Shown here piece by piece: positions 6,142 to 32,738 of a stretch of DNA of 37,604 nucleotides. Origin of the DNA: a virus. Made by a program: the position numbers and the translations under genes. The DNA is taken from positions 1 through 37,604 of IMG/VR virus record IMGVR_UViG_3300021185_004185. One strand, 5' to 3'. Each line of letters starts with the position of its first letter. The first letter of the stretch is position 1. The notes under the pieces are model-generated. The model was given only the letters and a program-made list of their open reading frames with translations, was not told the DNA's origin and did no database searches.

Positions 6142-9100
6142 TTAAAGTAAGCTAGGAATTAGCTTAGAATTGTTGTTGGTTGAAGAAATTTTTGCGTTAC
6201 TATTTAAAGCACTTTCTAGTTGTGGTTGAATGTTAGCTACCAATGCTCCGGTGTCTAGGGATAGAGGCTTATCACCATCTACTGCATGCAATACTGATGC
6301 ACCATCTTTTCGGAATATTCTACCTCCAGTAATATTTACGGCGACATCACCGAGGTTTTGAATTTTAATATTAGCAATAGCTTGGTCAATTTGGTAGTTA
6401 CTGCCATCAATTGCTCGTACTACATTAAACCACTTATCTACTCCATTAATTGAGGTTTGTGAGTACACCATAAATGCGTAGATTTCTTGTACGGTTGCTC
6501 CTCCATCTGCCTCACTAAGGTCTACTCCCATAGGAGTATTTGAGAAGTCTGCCGTCCATGTACTAATCGCACTTCCATCTATCGCATTGGTATTGTAAAC
6601 TGAATCCTCTTCTTGGCTTATTGAGAAACTAAGACCCGAAGATGAGGCAACTCCCGTTACCTCCAGGGGAAGCATGGCAGTTGCACCAACTACGCAAGTA
6701 ACTCTTAATCGTACAACATCGCCAGTAGCAATTTCACTAGATGTGTATGTTCCGCTAGTATCTACATTCCCACTGCTATTAGTAATTGCTTCGTCATTAA
6801 ATTCGGAGCTACTAATCGTTGTCGTGGCCGTAACTGTGTTATTTTCATTACCCTGAAGAAGGTCCACCTTAATATCAGTATCGTCTTGGATGAGTGCTGA
6901 ACCTAATACACCTGAGCTACCTACATTAAATTGTACTGCTCCACTTTGTAATGTCCAACTGCTAGAAGCGGACCCATTAGCGATTACCTCGACTGAAGTT
7001 GCATCTATAAATGCTCCGTCATGCCTTAATGTAACAGCGTATGTAAGACCCGCAAGCTCAAGCAACGTTGTCTTATTGTAAGCAATGCCTGTTAATTTTT
7101 GAGTAACAACTACTGCGTCTTTGGTTACATTATATAACTGCAATCGTGATGTTGCTTCTATATTTTTTATTTCCCAAGGAAGAACCGTGGTCGCTCCAAA
7201 TGTACCAATGACTTTTGCATCATTAAATAAAGTAGTAGTTCCAGTTGTGCTAATATTACCCACAAATGTGGTAGCTTTAATGGTTAAAGTATTACCGCTA
7301 ATCTCAAATACTGAACTTGCTGAAGCATCCAAAACTACATCATAAGAGCCCGCATTAATGGTGTTACCTTCACGAGAAACAATAGTTGATGTTTCGCCTG
7401 CGTAGTTATCGGTCAAGTATGCCTTTGCTCTGTTATAGAACTTCTGCGGTGTTTCAATTACTGTGTATGCATCTGTGGTTGCTCGCGTGTCAGTAATTAT
7501 AGAGTCATCAAAAAGAAGCCAATCAAATGACAAGGTTTGTGTTCCGAGTAATGACCTTGCACTAGTTCCTAGCATCTTGTCGTAGGCACAAAAATTGAAA
7601 TTAAAAATATCTTCTGTAGTATTCCCCTGACCCCTTCTGTCTACTTTGTAAAATCCACCAAACTTATCCGTGTCCCAATCGGCGTATGAAGCTCCTCTAT
7701 TTTCTGCATTGTCCTTCCACGCACTCGTATAGTCATCAATTGCGTAAGGGCCTCCAAATGATTGGAGTGCTGCCCGCTCACTGGTGTTATATTCTTTGAT
7801 TTGAGCACCAGTTAAAATTGAAAATTCAGATATTTCTCCATTAGAATCGGAAGTGTTAAGGTATTCTTTTGCACTCAGGTTGTTATACTCTATAGCGGTA
7901 GCTAGTTTTCCGTCACCGACAGCATGGTTAATAGTTCCAACAACATCACTGCCATCAAAATCTTGCAAACTAAAGGAATCAGCGTCAATAACTGTGATTT
8001 TTTTTCTACCATTAACTACATCTGCTCCGCTTATGCCTGACGCATCAGGAAAATTATATATTGCCACACAATCTCCAGTAGCAAATCCATGACTAGTAAA
8101 TGTCACTACGGCAGGAGTTGCGGCAGATATACTTACAGAATAAGAATGACTACCACCGCTTTTATTTCTTAACGCTGTATTTTTTGCATACTCTGAAGGA
8201 TTGTCTTTTACATGAACTTTAACATCAGGCAATGGATTATTCGCAATATCCGTAATATTTATGCTAACATTTCTATATGTTTCTGTGACATTACTCTGGT
8301 TTACACTTCCTGTAGTGCCTCTCCACATAGACCTAAAACTTGAGCCAGCAGAAGGATTGTACGCCTTGACGAGCGTGTGCCCATGCCCCGTCCCTGAAGC
8401 ATCACCAAAATCATAACCATTGGTATTTTGATTGGTGTCTACATTAAACAAAGGTAGTTCATAGGTATTCCCGAAAGTTCTAAAGAAAGACGCATTTACA
8501 AGATTAAATTCTTTCGTGTAAAGACTGCTGAAGTTTCCGATAGACATATTAACAAGTTCAACATTTGTTATATATCCTGTTGCCATACCCCTTGCCTCTG
8601 GACTCCAACCAGCTATTGGGTTTACTATTTTTAAATCTTTCCATTCTACATGAGAGCCAAAACTCCAAGGCTTAGTTATTACTATTGTTCCACCATTAGC
8701 TCGGAACTTAGTTCTGGAACCGCCAGACATACCGTAACCACTTGGATGCCAATTGCTGTTAGTTTGACCCGTAATAAAAATACCTGTCCCACGGGATGTT
8801 CTTGTTTTGCCGTAACCTGTATACTCTCCCCCATACTCAAAACCAGGATAACTTGCAATTCTACTACCGCCACTGGTCGCTAATGTATCACCAATGTCCT
8901 TGTAATCCAATGTAACTTCCCTAGTATCTGAGGAAATACTTCTAATAAGATGGGGTAAATCATTAAATCTTCTTAATGAATCTGAAGAATCACCTGTAAT
9001 TCCTTGGATGAAAAGACTTTGTCCTACCTCATAGACTGTATCGGAGGTAAAAGTAAGTACAGCATTACCCTCAGAATTATATGCGATTGTAAATCCGTAT

Positions 9101-13823: not shown

Positions 13824-14774
13824 TTACGATACGGAAACAAAATAAGGTAATGGATGTTGCCTATAGGCATCTGATGGAGCACTTGCGATTTCATATATAT
13901 ATGATTTTGGTATTAAAAAACCACCTGACTCTTGCCACCCCCACGGCGCGTTAGCATAGTCCAATGCGGTGTGTTGACTGCTTGGAGGCGACGCACTGAT
14001 GGGCGGAAGTGCTGGAGATGTTTTTATAAATTCTAATGAATAATTACTTGCTGATTGCTCAAGGGTATTCGCAGTGTGAGGTATATTAGTGAAAAAGGTT
14101 TTGTTTTCTAATGACATATTGCCAGGATTCTCCAATGGGGCTTGATTCCCTCCACTCCAAACAAGATTATGGACATAAAAAGTATCAGCGATACCGTTCC
14201 CACTGGTATCCGTATAATTAAGAGTATTACCCATGAATACCTGATTTCCTAAATCAATTGAAATAGACTCCGTATTTAGTGCATCGCTACCTGATGTTAC
14301 CTCATCCACCCCCGCCGGATACCACCAACGACCTAAGCCCATAATTCCTATATTGTTTGCCTGAGGGTAAAACACTTCATTTCGGTACTCACCATACAAT
14401 GCCGATATCAACCAAGGAGAAAATATGTTCGGGAATACAATTTGATGGGCTGCAATACCTCCATTCATTCCGAAATTTTGGTCCCAATGCATTCGCCCGG
14501 TGCTCGTTCTTGCCTTACTCAATAGCAATACATCAACGGAAGTTGTAGAGGAAGAAGCTCCCGCCGAATAAGGGTAATATGGAATCCCGTCGGGGTTGGT
14601 GATTCGTATTATTTGACCATCTAGAATCCCGTGGTCACCCACTGATGGATTTACATTTGGGTTACTTCGATATGCCGATGCTTTTTCCCATATCGTAGTG
14701 CCATTAAGGGTCAACTTATCAACATCTTGACCATCATAGGTGATGGCATCTGTATTACCCAAGTTATAGCTCAT
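13824..14774 (-). CDS. Virion protein, probable fibre tip or tail decoration
   Basis: This 316-residue protein begins MSYNLGNTDAITYDGQDVDK, then LTLNGTTIWEKA. That short module, in which a virion protein 'declares' a Gly-Thr-x-Ile/Val-Trp strand, is common at the N-terminus of phage tail proteins. The remainder is rich in aromatic residues, Asn, Ser and Pro (GLGRWWYPAGVDEV, FYVHNLVWSGGNQAP) and has no Cys pattern or catalytic motif. The middle suggests a beta-sandwich. It starts with ATGA overlap after the 857-residue fibre and precedes the nozzle by 3 bases, so it may sit on that fibre as a receptor-binding tip. This role is inference from neighbours. Confidence 0.55.
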   Translation of the reverse strand: MSYNLGNTDAITYDGQDVDKLTLNGTTIWEKASAYRSNPNVNPSVGDHGILDGQIIRITNPDGIPYYPYSAGASSSTTSVDVLLLSKARTSTGRMHWDQNFGMNGGIAAHQIVFPNIFSPWLISALYGEYRNEVFYPQANNIGIMGLGRWWYPAGVDEVTSGSDALNTESISIDLGNQVFMGNTLNYTDTSGNGIADTFYVHNLVWSGGNQAPLENPGNMSLENKTFFTNIPHTANTLEQSASNYSLEFIKTSPALPPISASPPSSQHTALDYANAPWGWQESGGFLIPKSYIYEIASAPSDAYRQHPLPYFVSVS

Positions 14775-17344
14775 GGATTTGTAATTGCTAAAGTCTTAGT
14801 GTCTTCATCGTATGCAAAGGTGGGGGTGGTTCCATCTGCTCCTTTGAGTCCATTAAGTTGAGCAGTGGTAAAGTCGCTATAAACGAAAGCATCTCCTTTG
14901 ACTTTGAGTCCATTAAGTTGAGCGGTGGTAAAGTCATTATAAACGAAAGCATCTCCTTTGAGTCCTTGGGGTATACCAAAAGCAATAGTTTGGTCGCCAT
15001 TTGTACCATTCCCGAGTTGTACGGTTGGGGTTGCCCCCGCCCCTAATCCATTAGCAGTTACACCTGAAATCTTAGTTCCTCTAGGGATATTTAATGAAAT
15101 TGAGACATCACCATTTGAATCTTTGGTATCAGTTGCAGATGCACTTGTTGCAGGAGTTACTGTACTTGCGGTTACATTTGTTATTTGACTACCTCTAGGA
15201 ATGCTAAATTTTAATGTTGAAGCATTGTATGATGCGTTTGAAGATGGCACTCCTTCCACAGCAGTTATATTAGCAAGCAAGGATGCAGTAGTGGGTGTAC
15301 CCGATATGTCAGTGTAGTTACCTGATGTCGCAACCGCATGAAATCCTGATGTATTAGCAGCAGGAACAGTTCCACTTACTATTGTCCCAAGCTTGGTAAT
15401 TTCTCCACTTCCTGCCCATGTCGATAGAGCCGTGTTCTCAACACTACCTAGTCCAACTTGTGCTTTAGTTACCGAGTGTGGATTACCTGTATCACTAGTA
15501 TGAGATGTAAGGTCTTCATTAAATGCAATTGTTTTTATCGTGCCACCAATATTCAACTTCCATGTATCATCACTCTCATCCCAAAATAACTGAGAATTTG
15601 TTGCGGTTCCACGCTCAACTTCAATCCCTGCATCCAAGGATGGTGTGCCTGTTACATTTTTATTAAGCTTTATTATATTATCCTCAACATCAAGTTGTGA
15701 TGTATTAAGAATAGTATTATCTCCATGAACAGTTAGGTCACCCCACACGACTAGGTCTGGTGGATTAGTATCAGTTGAATTTCCTAGAGTTATATTATCA
15801 TAGAAATTTGATGCTCCCCCCACATTTAAGCTACCACCTATTGATACGCCCCCAAGGATTTTTGCTCCTCCATTACCAATAGAAACTTGTGGGGCGGAAA
15901 ATAAGCTAACTACTTCTAGCTTACCATTTATATTAACATTATCATCTATTAATACATTAGAGTTTTCTGAGAATAGACGAAGTTGAGAAAGGCTCGAGAT
16001 TGCACCGCCCGATATACTAACATCCCCAATCTTTGCCCTAGGCATATCCGCCACGCCACCAAGTGACACATCCCCGGTAACTACAAAATTTCCATTAATA
16101 GAAGTAGTGTCGGAATTTACATCATAGGTAATATCCTTAACCCTATCCCATAAATCTCGCTGTGTAACTAATCCTGTACTACCTGTTCCTTCCTCTGGGA
16201 GTGTTCCTGTGTGTACCGTTCTGTAGATTTCGATAAGTGTTTGAATCTGACTATCAGTTTGTGCTCTTGAATATGTATCAAAGTCTGACAATGCCACCTT
16301 ATGGGGATTATCTTCATCATTCAAGTGAGCTTGTAGTAATGCCTGTGCATCAACATTTGGAACATTTCCAAGACTTACGCTATTTTTAGTTAAGCCAGTA
16401 ATTACGCCTGATAAATTAATATTACCTGATAAAGTTGGGTCGGTAAATAAACTTACCCTTGAGAGGTTTTCTACATTTCCTAATCCTACATCCGCTTTCG
16501 TAATGCTATGTGGATTAGATTCTGCTAAGTGACCAACCAACATAGTGGTTTTACCATCCTCTATCTTTTGGTCCGCCTCCGCTTTCGAGTATTTATCTAG
16601 GTCGGAAATATTAGCCTCCGTGTGAGTGTGAGCAGGAACGCTTCCATCACTAACCACTCCGGCGAAAAGAGAATCGACTTCCGCTTTTGAATACTTGTCT
16701 AGGTCAGAAATACTAGATTCACTATGCGTATGCCCAATATCAGACTTACCCTGCAATAATAAATTTGCAGTTGCAGATTCTATGTAATTCTTGAGGTCAG
16801 AAATTTCAGACTCAGTATGCCCGTGAGATAAGTCTGCTTTTCCTGAAATTGAAGTTTCTAATTCTGACTTTGCTTGAGCTACTAAACTTGAATCATTTGC
16901 ATTATCCAATGCAGTCTGAAGTCCAGTAACCTCAGATATTTGATGAGTATGAGCACTTGATGCGTGATTATCAACTAGGTCTTGAACCTGTGCCTTTGTG
17001 TAAACTAAATCAAGAAGGTCAGTAATACTAGACGCCAAGTGAGTATGGTTTGTGTCTGACTTCCCGACCAGGTAACCCCCTAAGTCAGCTTTAAGTAAAT
17101 AGTCATTAAGTGTTGTGGAATTTAATTCCTCAATAGACCCAACCCTTATTCCAAGTGCATCAACTACTGCCTTCAAGGCAACACCCTGACGAGCCGCAAG
17201 TGCTTGTACACCTGAGTCGGTAGTTAAGTTATCTGCGACTTCCTCATCTATCCCCAATAGGGAATCTATTAATATAGAAAATTGTGCCTGTGTTGGAGAG
17301 TCCCCAGTCTCGAAGTAACTCTTTAGTGTAGTCTTGGTAGCCAT
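14771..17344 (-). CDS. Long tail fibre with HTH/NPHS repeats and 60-bp tandem duplication
   Basis: This 857-residue fibre carries at least six repeats built around His pairs: KSDTNHTHLASSITDL, HASSAHTHQISEVTGL, KADLSHGHTESEISDL, KSDIGHTHSESSISDL, PAHTHTEANISDL. It also has the NPHSITKADVGLGNVEN and NPHSVTKAQVGLGSVEN type. A segment with LDVEDNIIKLNKNVTG is shared with the two modular fibres downstream. The C-terminus has IPRGS/IPRGTKISGVTANGL repeats, then two near-identical units KGDAFVYNDFTTAQLNGLK encoded by a 60-bp tandem duplication (14841-14960). It sits between the adaptor and a possible tip protein. It is most likely the main receptor-binding fibre. Confidence 0.8.
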   Translation of the reverse strand: MATKTTLKSYFETGDSPTQAQFSILIDSLLGIDEEVADNLTTDSGVQALAARQGVALKAVVDALGIRVGSIEELNSTTLNDYLLKADLGGYLVGKSDTNHTHLASSITDLLDLVYTKAQVQDLVDNHASSAHTHQISEVTGLQTALDNANDSSLVAQAKSELETSISGKADLSHGHTESEISDLKNYIESATANLLLQGKSDIGHTHSESSISDLDKYSKAEVDSLFAGVVSDGSVPAHTHTEANISDLDKYSKAEADQKIEDGKTTMLVGHLAESNPHSITKADVGLGNVENLSRVSLFTDPTLSGNINLSGVITGLTKNSVSLGNVPNVDAQALLQAHLNDEDNPHKVALSDFDTYSRAQTDSQIQTLIEIYRTVHTGTLPEEGTGSTGLVTQRDLWDRVKDITYDVNSDTTSINGNFVVTGDVSLGGVADMPRAKIGDVSISGGAISSLSQLRLFSENSNVLIDDNVNINGKLEVVSLFSAPQVSIGNGGAKILGGVSIGGSLNVGGASNFYDNITLGNSTDTNPPDLVVWGDLTVHGDNTILNTSQLDVEDNIIKLNKNVTGTPSLDAGIEVERGTATNSQLFWDESDDTWKLNIGGTIKTIAFNEDLTSHTSDTGNPHSVTKAQVGLGSVENTALSTWAGSGEITKLGTIVSGTVPAANTSGFHAVATSGNYTDISGTPTTASLLANITAVEGVPSSNASYNASTLKFSIPRGSQITNVTASTVTPATSASATDTKDSNGDVSISLNIPRGTKISGVTANGLGAGATPTVQLGNGTNGDQTIAFGIPQGLKGDAFVYNDFTTAQLNGLKVKGDAFVYSDFTTAQLNGLKGADGTTPTFAYDEDTKTLAITNP
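14841..14960 (-). repeat. 60-bp tandem duplication in the long fibre gene
   Basis: Two nearly identical 60-base units (14841-14900, 14901-14960) encode the repeated KGDAFVYNDFTTAQLNGLK segment; a partial third unit follows. They differ at a few bases. The length is a multiple of three, so gain or loss would keep frame. Confidence 0.85.
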
Positions 17345-30915: not shown

Positions 30916-30973
30916 CTTATCGGCTCTAGAGGGTGAATATTAAAATACTTTCCTACCTTATTTAATCAAGAAA

Positions 30974-31005
30974 AGCGTTACGAAGCGTTACGAAAAGGGT
31001 TACGA
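30974..31005. repeat. Three GTTACGA direct repeats at the int 3' end
   Basis: AGCGTTACGA occurs at 30974 and 30984 and AGGGTTACGA at 30996, overlapping the int stop codon (31000-31002). Spacings of 10 and 12 bases are close to one helix turn. They may be protein-binding sites, possibly for integrase or excisionase. Confidence 0.5.
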
Positions 31006-32010
31006 ATCCGTATCTATACTAAAATACTTTTTTGCTTCAGCTTTAGATACTTTTTTATTCATGTAGTAAGTTTTAAAGGTATTGTAGTTCATGTGACCCA
31101 TCGTGTGCATCGTCCACTCTAGTCCATACATCCAGTATCCATACGAGCCGAAACTATGCCTCGCTCCATCACCTGGATATTTAAATCCTAGTCTCTTAAC
31201 TGCTCTTGACCGACTTTGGTTCATTCCCTTCCATGATGGCATCACGGGGCCACTTTTCTTATCGGGTATCCATGACCACAAATTATCAGGCAATTCCGTA
31301 ATAAATCGAGAGGGTGTCTTTGAAGCGGGAACGCTAATAGACTCACCATGCTTTATATGAGAGTAATCAAGCTTTTCCATTTCACCCTGCGGTCGCAGTC
31401 CGGCAAATAACATAATAGCAAGGGATGGTTTATATTTCTCCCACGAACGGGAATTATTTCGCTCGCCTCCATCTTCGTTGAGTAACAGTTCAGCTTGTTT
31501 GGGAGTTAAAATTCCAATCTCTCTTTCTTTCGGGGGCATTCTGAGTGTTTTAATTTCCCATTTGGTTTTCTTGCAGTACCCCATTAAGCCGCACCAATTT
31601 AAAAATATTACAAATTGATTCTTATAGGTGTACTTACTTGAAGCTGTTTTCCATGAGGATTGCTCCTCTACCCGTCTTTGAATGTACTGGACATCAATTG
31701 AATCAATTTTCTCACCACCAAGTCCCCACTTTAATAAATAATTTAGCCTCGATTCAATGTGGCTCCACCTCGCATCTGGGTATCTACTTTGGTAATTCTC
31801 CAAGTACTTTCTTATACCTACCGAAACAGTTGTGTTATATCCATCCGGTTGGTCTTCAAAACTGGACAACCATTCATTCAGCCCACCATCTTTCTCAAAT
31901 CTTTGAGACTCACCAAAGTCGGAAAAACTTTTTCGCCTACGCTTTCCATGATGCATAACATCAATCACATATTTAGTTTCACCCCTAACCGTTCGCTTAT
32001 ACTTTTTCAT
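31000..32010 (-). CDS. int: Tyrosine recombinase integrase
   Basis: This 336-residue protein has the full phage-integrase layout: an N-terminal arm-binding region (about 1-60; KYVIDVMHHGKRRRKSF), a core-binding helical domain (about 61-150) and the catalytic domain from about 165. Catalytic residues as I read them are Arg206 in AGLRPQGE, Lys231 in PASKTPSR, Arg284-His285 in DGARHSFGSY, His306 in MGHMN and Tyr315 in TFKTYYMN. The first position of the HxxR box is Asp281, not His. Direct repeats flank the gene on both sides, and the attP core lies 200 bases upstream of its start. It should integrate the phage at a tRNA-Thr gene. Confidence 0.93.
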   Translation of the reverse strand: MKKYKRTVRGETKYVIDVMHHGKRRRKSFSDFGESQRFEKDGGLNEWLSSFEDQPDGYNTTVSVGIRKYLENYQSRYPDARWSHIESRLNYLLKWGLGGEKIDSIDVQYIQRRVEEQSSWKTASSKYTYKNQFVIFLNWCGLMGYCKKTKWEIKTLRMPPKEREIGILTPKQAELLLNEDGGERNNSRSWEKYKPSLAIMLFAGLRPQGEMEKLDYSHIKHGESISVPASKTPSRFITELPDNLWSWIPDKKSGPVMPSWKGMNQSRSRAVKRLGFKYPGDGARHSFGSYGYWMYGLEWTMHTMGHMNYNTFKTYYMNKKVSKAEAKKYFSIDTDS

Positions 32011-32056
32011 AGTGGTGACATGATTTTTGGGGATGGTGACATAAGTGGTGACATAA
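32011..32056. repeat. Three direct repeats TGGTGACAT(A/G) upstream of int
   Basis: Copies begin at 32011, 32033 and 32044. Spacing of 22 and 11 bases keeps them on one face of the helix. A fourth, weaker copy (TGGTGACA) lies at 32289-32296 beyond the attP core, so they look like integrase arm sites. Confidence 0.6.
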
Positions 32057-32100
32057 AATCTGTAAATTTATGAGTAATCGTGATGAACAGTGAAGTAAAT

Positions 32101-32134
32101 AAAAAAGGACTTCTCGATTAAAAGAAGCCCCTTT
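32101..32134 (-). terminator. Terminator between lysogeny genes and integrase
   Basis: On the minus strand AAAAAGGGGCTTCT pairs with AGAAGTCCTTTTTT (14 pairs, two of them G-U) and is followed by a U-rich run. On the plus strand the G-U pairs become A-C mismatches, so it should work leftward, ending transcripts from the regulator/membrane gene before the integrase. Confidence 0.75.
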
Positions 32135-32211
32135 TTACTTAAGGAAAATGGCTTTATTGTTGCATTTCCTCTGTATTTTAGTAGTGTGTTGGCTTATTGC
32201 TTTTGCGATTC

Positions 32212-32250
32212 GCCACCTTAGCTCAGCTGGTAGAGCACCTCACTTGTAAG
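32212..32250 (+). other. attP: attP core: 5' half of a tRNA-Thr (anticodon TGT)
   Basis: The sequence GCCACCTTAGCTCAGCTGGT and onward forms acceptor 5' strand, D arm (GCTC...GAGC) and 5' anticodon stem plus loop CTTGTAA with anticodon TGT. After the loop the expected TGAGG stem is replaced by GGCGA and no T arm follows, so this is not a complete tRNA gene. Homology to the 5' half only fits an integrase attachment core in a tRNA-Thr gene. A weak promoter-like stretch (TTGCAT near 32159) lies upstream. Confidence 0.75.
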
Positions 32251-32279
32251 GCGATTAACTTCCCCGTCTTTACTGACCC

Positions 32280-32738
32280 TCAGGGCCTTGGTGACAAGTT
32301 GGTGCCAAGTTCCACCCAATTTGGGTCGACTACCCACTTGTCCTTGACCCATGTATTTCCAGTCAATTCGTATAGTCTGCTCGCGAGGTGTTGCCGGGAG
32401 TGGACAGCATTAATCATCTCGATGTGATGATTTTTCTCGTTTATCAATAAGGTTGCTAAATTCCTTTTTTGATTATCCTCGTAATGGTAAATCAGAGATA
32501 CCAACACGAGTACCGCTATGGCAATCAAACTTGCCAATACTGCAATTACTCTTATTTGCCGAGAAAGCGTTTCAGTTTTCTTGGCAATGTCATGTGTTTG
32601 CAATATATCCTCTCCATTGACTTTCAGATTTTTCAGGTTCCCAGACAACACGGGAAATTCGAGGATTTGTTCTTCCCCGTCAATGTAGCTGATAGTTGAA
32701 TTTTGCATATATTTTATTTGTTTTCTATTTTTTGACAC
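32280..32738 (-). CDS. Single-pass membrane protein in the lysogeny region
   Basis: This protein has up to 152 residues. The first ATG (32738) overlaps the regulator gene upstream by 25 bases; a second ATG (32708) begins MQNSTISYIDGEEQILEFPV and is also possible. After about 60 polar residues and a charged helix (DIAKKTETLSRQIRV) comes a strong membrane segment (IAVLASLIAIAVLVLVSLIY). The remaining 60 residues (HYEDNQKRNLATLLINEKNH) lie on the other side. It ends SPRP inside the attP arm region, so integration rearranges sequence close to its 3' end. Lysogenic conversion or superinfection exclusion is a reasonable inference; I do not recognise the family. Confidence 0.6.
   Translation of the reverse strand: MSKNRKQIKYMQNSTISYIDGEEQILEFPVLSGNLKNLKVNGEDILQTHDIAKKTETLSRQIRVIAVLASLIAIAVLVLVSLIYHYEDNQKRNLATLLINEKNHHIEMINAVHSRQHLASRLYELTGNTWVKDKWVVDPNWVELGTNLSPRP

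Follow-up and report, generated by a model that had tools for sequence, protein, structure and literature searches.

The attachment site (attP) of a marine phage carries the 5′ half of a tRNA-Thr(TGT) gene. The phage is represented by the 37.6-kb IMG/VR viral contig IMGVR_UViG_3300021185_004185, all 37,604 nucleotides of which were analysed (hereafter ‘the window’), and it is highly probable (about 0.88 by our estimate) that the site serves a temperate Opitutales phage as attP and that recombination at the anticodon loop would rebuild the host tRNA-Thr(TGT) from the phage 5′ half, to be expressed from a phage promoter. An element that integrates in a tRNA gene has to leave that tRNA functional, and the integrase family to which this phage belongs shows three ways of sparing the target tRNA: by a 3′ half, by a 5′ half and by a whole tRNA.

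Anatomy of the attachment site

The window encodes a terminase, a portal-like protein, a Rad52/Erf-like protein, an exonuclease, a DnaB-like helicase and an integrase. The features found at and around the integrase gene (int) are as follows:

31000-32010, minus strand: int, tyrosine-family integrase of 336 aa (PHROG phrog_1 integrase, E 3e-22)
32013-32054, plus strand: P arm, three TGGTGACAT repeats (32013-32021, 32034-32042 and 32046-32054) next to the int start
32101-32137, no strand assigned: hairpin between A- and T-runs, conserved in close relatives
32160-32165, plus strand: −35-like box TTGCAT, invariant in six phages
32182-32187, plus strand: −10-like box TAGTGT, 16 nt past TTGCAT, with variants in the six phages
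32212-32249, plus strand: 5′ half (nt 1-38) of tRNA-Thr(TGT), the attP core, an exact match to the tRNA
32280-32738, minus strand: open reading frame (ORF) with no family match, the first of the phage genes past attP and not host DNA
32288-32308, plus strand: P′ arm beyond the core, TTGGTGACAA (32288-32297) and TTGGTGCCAA (32299-32308)

Positions 32212-32249 read GCCACCTTAGCTCAGCTGGTAGAGCACCTCACTTGTAA, which is nt 1-38 of tRNA-Thr(TGT) from G1 through the last nucleotide of the anticodon loop; the chance expectation for a 32-nt piece of this block is 0. Homology ends exactly past the 7-nt loop (32243-32249), which is presumed to be the overlap of the attP core; five close phages have 0-2 more matching nt, and before G1 the identity between window and host extends for no more than 3-4 nt (TTC). 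Agreement between attP and tRNA thus begins at the tRNA 5′ end and stops at the presumed crossover; the 3′ half is missing from the window, where neither ARAGORN nor Rfam found a complete tRNA. A sequence-only reading of this DNA had claimed that the attP holds the 5′ and not the 3′ half of tRNA-Thr and that homology stops after the anticodon loop, and both claims are borne out; a core that spans the 3′ half as well, which it had named as evidence against itself, is absent in all relatives. The span to which it drew attention (32011-32296) runs from the P arm through the promoter-like boxes and the core into the P′ arm, whose second repeat ends outside it, at 32308.

Integrase residues R206, K231, R284-H285, H306 and Y316, which we take to be the catalytic residues, are invariant across seven relatives. 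A search of solved structures using the integrase profile gave no match, nor did the first integrase scan of genome contigs, and in a phage database neither the window DNA nor the terminase found a match, the integrase returning only weak matches to Akkermansia phages. The int start of the window lies ~200 nt from G1 of the half. The hairpin at 32101-32137 is a weak fold (z −1.5) that the scanner did not flag as a terminator; situated between int and the tRNA promoter region, it may terminate transcription in both directions, possibly insulating the two from each other in the lysogen.

One alternative is that the half serves solely as a recombination core, with a whole phage tRNA located elsewhere (tRNA-dependent lysogeny). 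Sister integrases, described below, do exactly so at tRNA-Thr(CGT), but their cores span just 10-20 bp, whereas the window match reaches G1 with a promoter-like pair ahead of it, and no tRNA is carried in the window or in two related contigs that cross the site (G004 and G005); this explanation is improbable.

Less probable still is that the window shows a prophage in its integrated state, the half being a host 5′ fragment displaced to attL, although the attL of a 5′-type insertion would hold exactly this half. That reading is already contradicted by the flanking phage features and contigs: int, arm repeats and the terminator-like hairpin immediately precede the half, phage genes follow it, and several contigs with different ends cross the site. 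Among these, G005 (99.9% identical) and G004 (diverged) have phage genes on both sides, and a near-identical phage contig continues through the ORF at 32280-32738. The arm repeats, moreover, covary. In relatives the P-arm repeat TGGTGACAT becomes TGTTGCCAT in step with the P′-arm repeats, and GGTGACA is replaced by GTTGCCA in the repeats of both arms in relatives L003-L005, a joint change that is expected if the integrase binds both arms. Because arm-type repeats (putative binding sites) and phage genes occur on both sides of a core adjoined by a tyrosine integrase gene, the tRNA half is, as judged from sequence, the attP of that integrase and not an integrated junction.

Host allele and predicted integration product

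The exact 38-mer occurs in only 3 of the 84,980 species genomes scanned, all three of them Opitutales (Verrucomicrobiota), and in each it is nt 1-38 of an intact tRNA-Thr(TGT) gene. This agrees with the target proposed in the sequence-only reading and suggests that the phage host belongs to the Opitutales. Each of these genomes has one match at up to 3 mismatches, so that tRNA-Thr(TGT) looks single-copy in genomes that may be incomplete.

Seven distinct phages carry the tRNA-Thr(TGT) 5′ half. In five of them, whose integrases are 76-100% identical, the tRNA block and the preceding TTC (GTTC or ATTC) are identical while the flanks diverge. The half of a sixth phage (L100, integrase 64% identical) has T and G at two allele positions, an exact match to the tRNA-Thr(TGT) allele that other members of the host family carry. 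The seventh, L021, is a different 35-kb phage with the same 38 nt at 8882-8919 and a 25% identical integrase at 6900-8210 (minus strand); the repeats near its core (CTGTCAG) differ from those of the window phage. The 3′ half alone was found in no viral contig, all sixteen viral-contig matches being whole tRNA genes. Five large phages with the 38-mer (L011, L012, L013, L018 and L020) were rejected as half carriers, since they hold whole tRNA genes. Since such phages carry whole genes of the same sequence, the half might be what is left of a phage tRNA gene and be unconnected with integration, but this is scarcely credible: every half stops at the loop or just past it and agrees with a host allele, the halves of the related phages are flanked by arm repeats at ~180-200 bp from the start of int, and a half is also found close to a distant integrase.

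Under the favoured attP reading, the integrase of this temperate phage would recombine the attP anticodon loop (CTTGTAA) with the loop of the host tRNA-Thr(TGT) gene. When this recombination was performed in silico, the int-side junction (attR) held an intact tRNA-Thr and the other side (attL) held no tRNA. The phage 5′ half and phage promoter would thereby be joined to the host 3′ half to give an intact, expressed tRNA, and the host 5′ half and host promoter would be displaced to the opposite prophage end. Neither an integrated copy of the window phage type nor a displaced tRNA-Thr(TGT) 5′ fragment turned up when 373 Opitutales genomes were searched by pattern and by integrase, and the insertion product, including the crossover point, is therefore given as a prediction. 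The junction search suggested by the sequence-only reading gave none for this phage type; the only direct junctions recovered belong to sister integrases and lie in the tRNA-Thr(CGT) anticodon loop.

Promoter candidate ahead of the tRNA half

Apart from an A6 run, TTGCAT is the only invariant run of at least 6 nt between int and the half in six related phages, and in 6/6 of them TAGTGT, TAGTAT or TACTGT follows 16 nt after it; these phages are related and do not count as independent instances. Similar boxes are found in the hosts. A two-box rule, formulated after the sequences had been viewed, matched upstream of 9 of 13 host tRNA-Thr(TGT) genes, mostly with a 16-nt spacer, against a background of 3% in random 70-nt stretches of the window and 7% in shuffled upstream regions. 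TTGATT-N16-TAGTGT precedes one host tRNA-Thr gene, and TTGCAT lies at −44 or −46 of five host tRNA-Thr(TGT) genes. The conserved host-like boxes may thus constitute a phage-borne promoter for the rebuilt tRNA. A sigma-70 scan called no promoter at the two-box site and L021 lacks the pair, and for these reasons, together with the post hoc nature of the rule, promoter activity is something that we infer. The proposal that insertion supplies a new 5′ half and a phage promoter region therefore stands as regards the boxes and the intact in silico tRNA, with insertion and promoter activity remaining predictions.

Integrase relatives and known systems

A profile scan recovered 54 loci related to the window integrase. 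The window clade (six rows) is set apart by a branch supported at 96/95 in a tree that was midpoint-rooted for drawing only and gives no direction of change. Neighbouring integrases (L117-L124 and L125/G281/G258) have a core of only ~10-20 bp from the anticodon loop of tRNA-Thr(CGT). Genomes G281 and G258 belong to the same host family as the presumed host of the window phage, and in both an integrated element of 18-19 kb splits tRNA-Thr(CGT) in the anticodon loop, with the 5′ half on the int side, the 3′ half at the far end and 15 bp common to the two junctions. The elements were located as follows:

G281 element: L032, 1267-2540, and L069, around 18516 (G281:C9)
G258 element: L033, L070 and L071 (G258:C11)

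In each element the 3′ end of int overlaps a whole tRNA-Thr(CGT) gene that the element itself carries, and neither genome yielded a further copy of this tRNA. Four more genomes from the host family, including G002, the presumed window-phage host, have the gene intact. Viral contigs L118, L119, L120, L122 and L125 likewise hold exactly one tRNA each, a tRNA-Thr(CGT) (tRNA loci L162-L166) whose anticodon matches that of the short att core. The combination of short core, split tRNA and element tRNA with the same anticodon, seen across G281, G258, L118-L122 and L125, looks like tRNA-dependent lysogeny outside the Actinobacteria. The window phage differs, with a 38-bp core that reaches G1 and no tRNA of its own.

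In the outer relatives the half is the ordinary 3′ one, from tRNA-Arg(ACG) or tRNA-Pro, and lies upstream of int in the same sense. The core of the window clade is antisense to int, and the half adjoining int is consequently the 5′ half. The near-palindromic anticodon stem-loop would be used in the opposite orientation to int from that of the sister integrases; after such a change the captured half would still be the int-side half, hence the 5′ half, and we infer that the 5′ half was captured in this way. A fuller version, to which we give somewhat less than an even chance, is that the core orientation flipped within one integrase family, turning 3′-half or whole-tRNA repair into 5′-half repair, and that a prophage promoter now drives an apparently single tRNA-Thr(TGT); if so, lysogens could possibly tune this tRNA from the prophage.

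Classic tRNA-targeting phages have a 3′-half attP (Williams 2002, as cited in PMC8371274). These resemble the window phage in having a tyrosine integrase, an anticodon-loop crossover and a restored tRNA, whereas the window phage has the 5′ half and the original promoter would be lost. Repair of the 5′ end costs the host promoter, and for this reason it is uncommon among bacterial phages, with sparse documentation; literature searches worded around a 5′-half attP were mostly empty, and a review describes 5′-half rebuilding as seldom encountered in bacteria (PMC8371274). It is nevertheless already known, and the window phage adds one more case. In Islander, 159 of 3919 islands (~4% of those mapped) have a displaced 5′ tDNA fragment, often with the crossover in the anticodon loop (PMC4383910). 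There, as predicted here, the 5′ fragment is displaced and the element supplies the 5′ end (PMC4383910); the window phage differs in presenting a free attP and a conserved promoter candidate, its integrated form not having been found. The attP of the archaeal plasmid pTN3 of Thermococcus nautili shares 41 bp with the 5′ half of tRNA-Leu (PMC5495485, PMC8371274), and integration rebuilds the tRNA and parts it from its original promoter (PMC5495485), as would the window phage. The pTN3 integrase gene is disrupted on integration, and its promoter is said to drive the tRNA (PMC5495485, PMC8371274), whereas the window phage has an intact int and, separate from it, a host-like promoter candidate directed at the tRNA. 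Finally, tRNA-dependent lysogeny has been described in actinobacteriophages, in which related integrases vary in whether they rebuild the target tRNA (PMC10865867). The sister clades share with these phages a short core and an element tRNA of the same anticodon and point to such lysogeny beyond the Actinobacteria; the window phage instead would rebuild the tRNA and carries none, and the hosts here are Verrucomicrobiota.

What is new is the occurrence of 3′-half, 5′-half and whole-tRNA solutions within one integrase family, where the change from one solution to another can be traced, alongside a conserved phage-borne promoter candidate. The window phage appears to bring a matching promoter, and two different solutions are found among its close relatives.

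Three further observations were made. In genome G348 (L045, L087), tRNA-Leu(CAA) is present as two complete genes that are identical in their 5′ parts. Each adjoins an integrase gene, one copy pointing its 5′ end and the other its 3′ end at the integrase; the former was considered as a 5′-type junction and rejected, both copies being complete tRNAs. In the window, a head-to-tail pair of 60-bp stretches (~95% alike) lies at 14842-14961, within a large minus-strand ORF (14771-17344). A sequence of ~37 bp is present once at the int stop codon (30970-31006) and in about four overlapping copies at 11456-11573 of L016.
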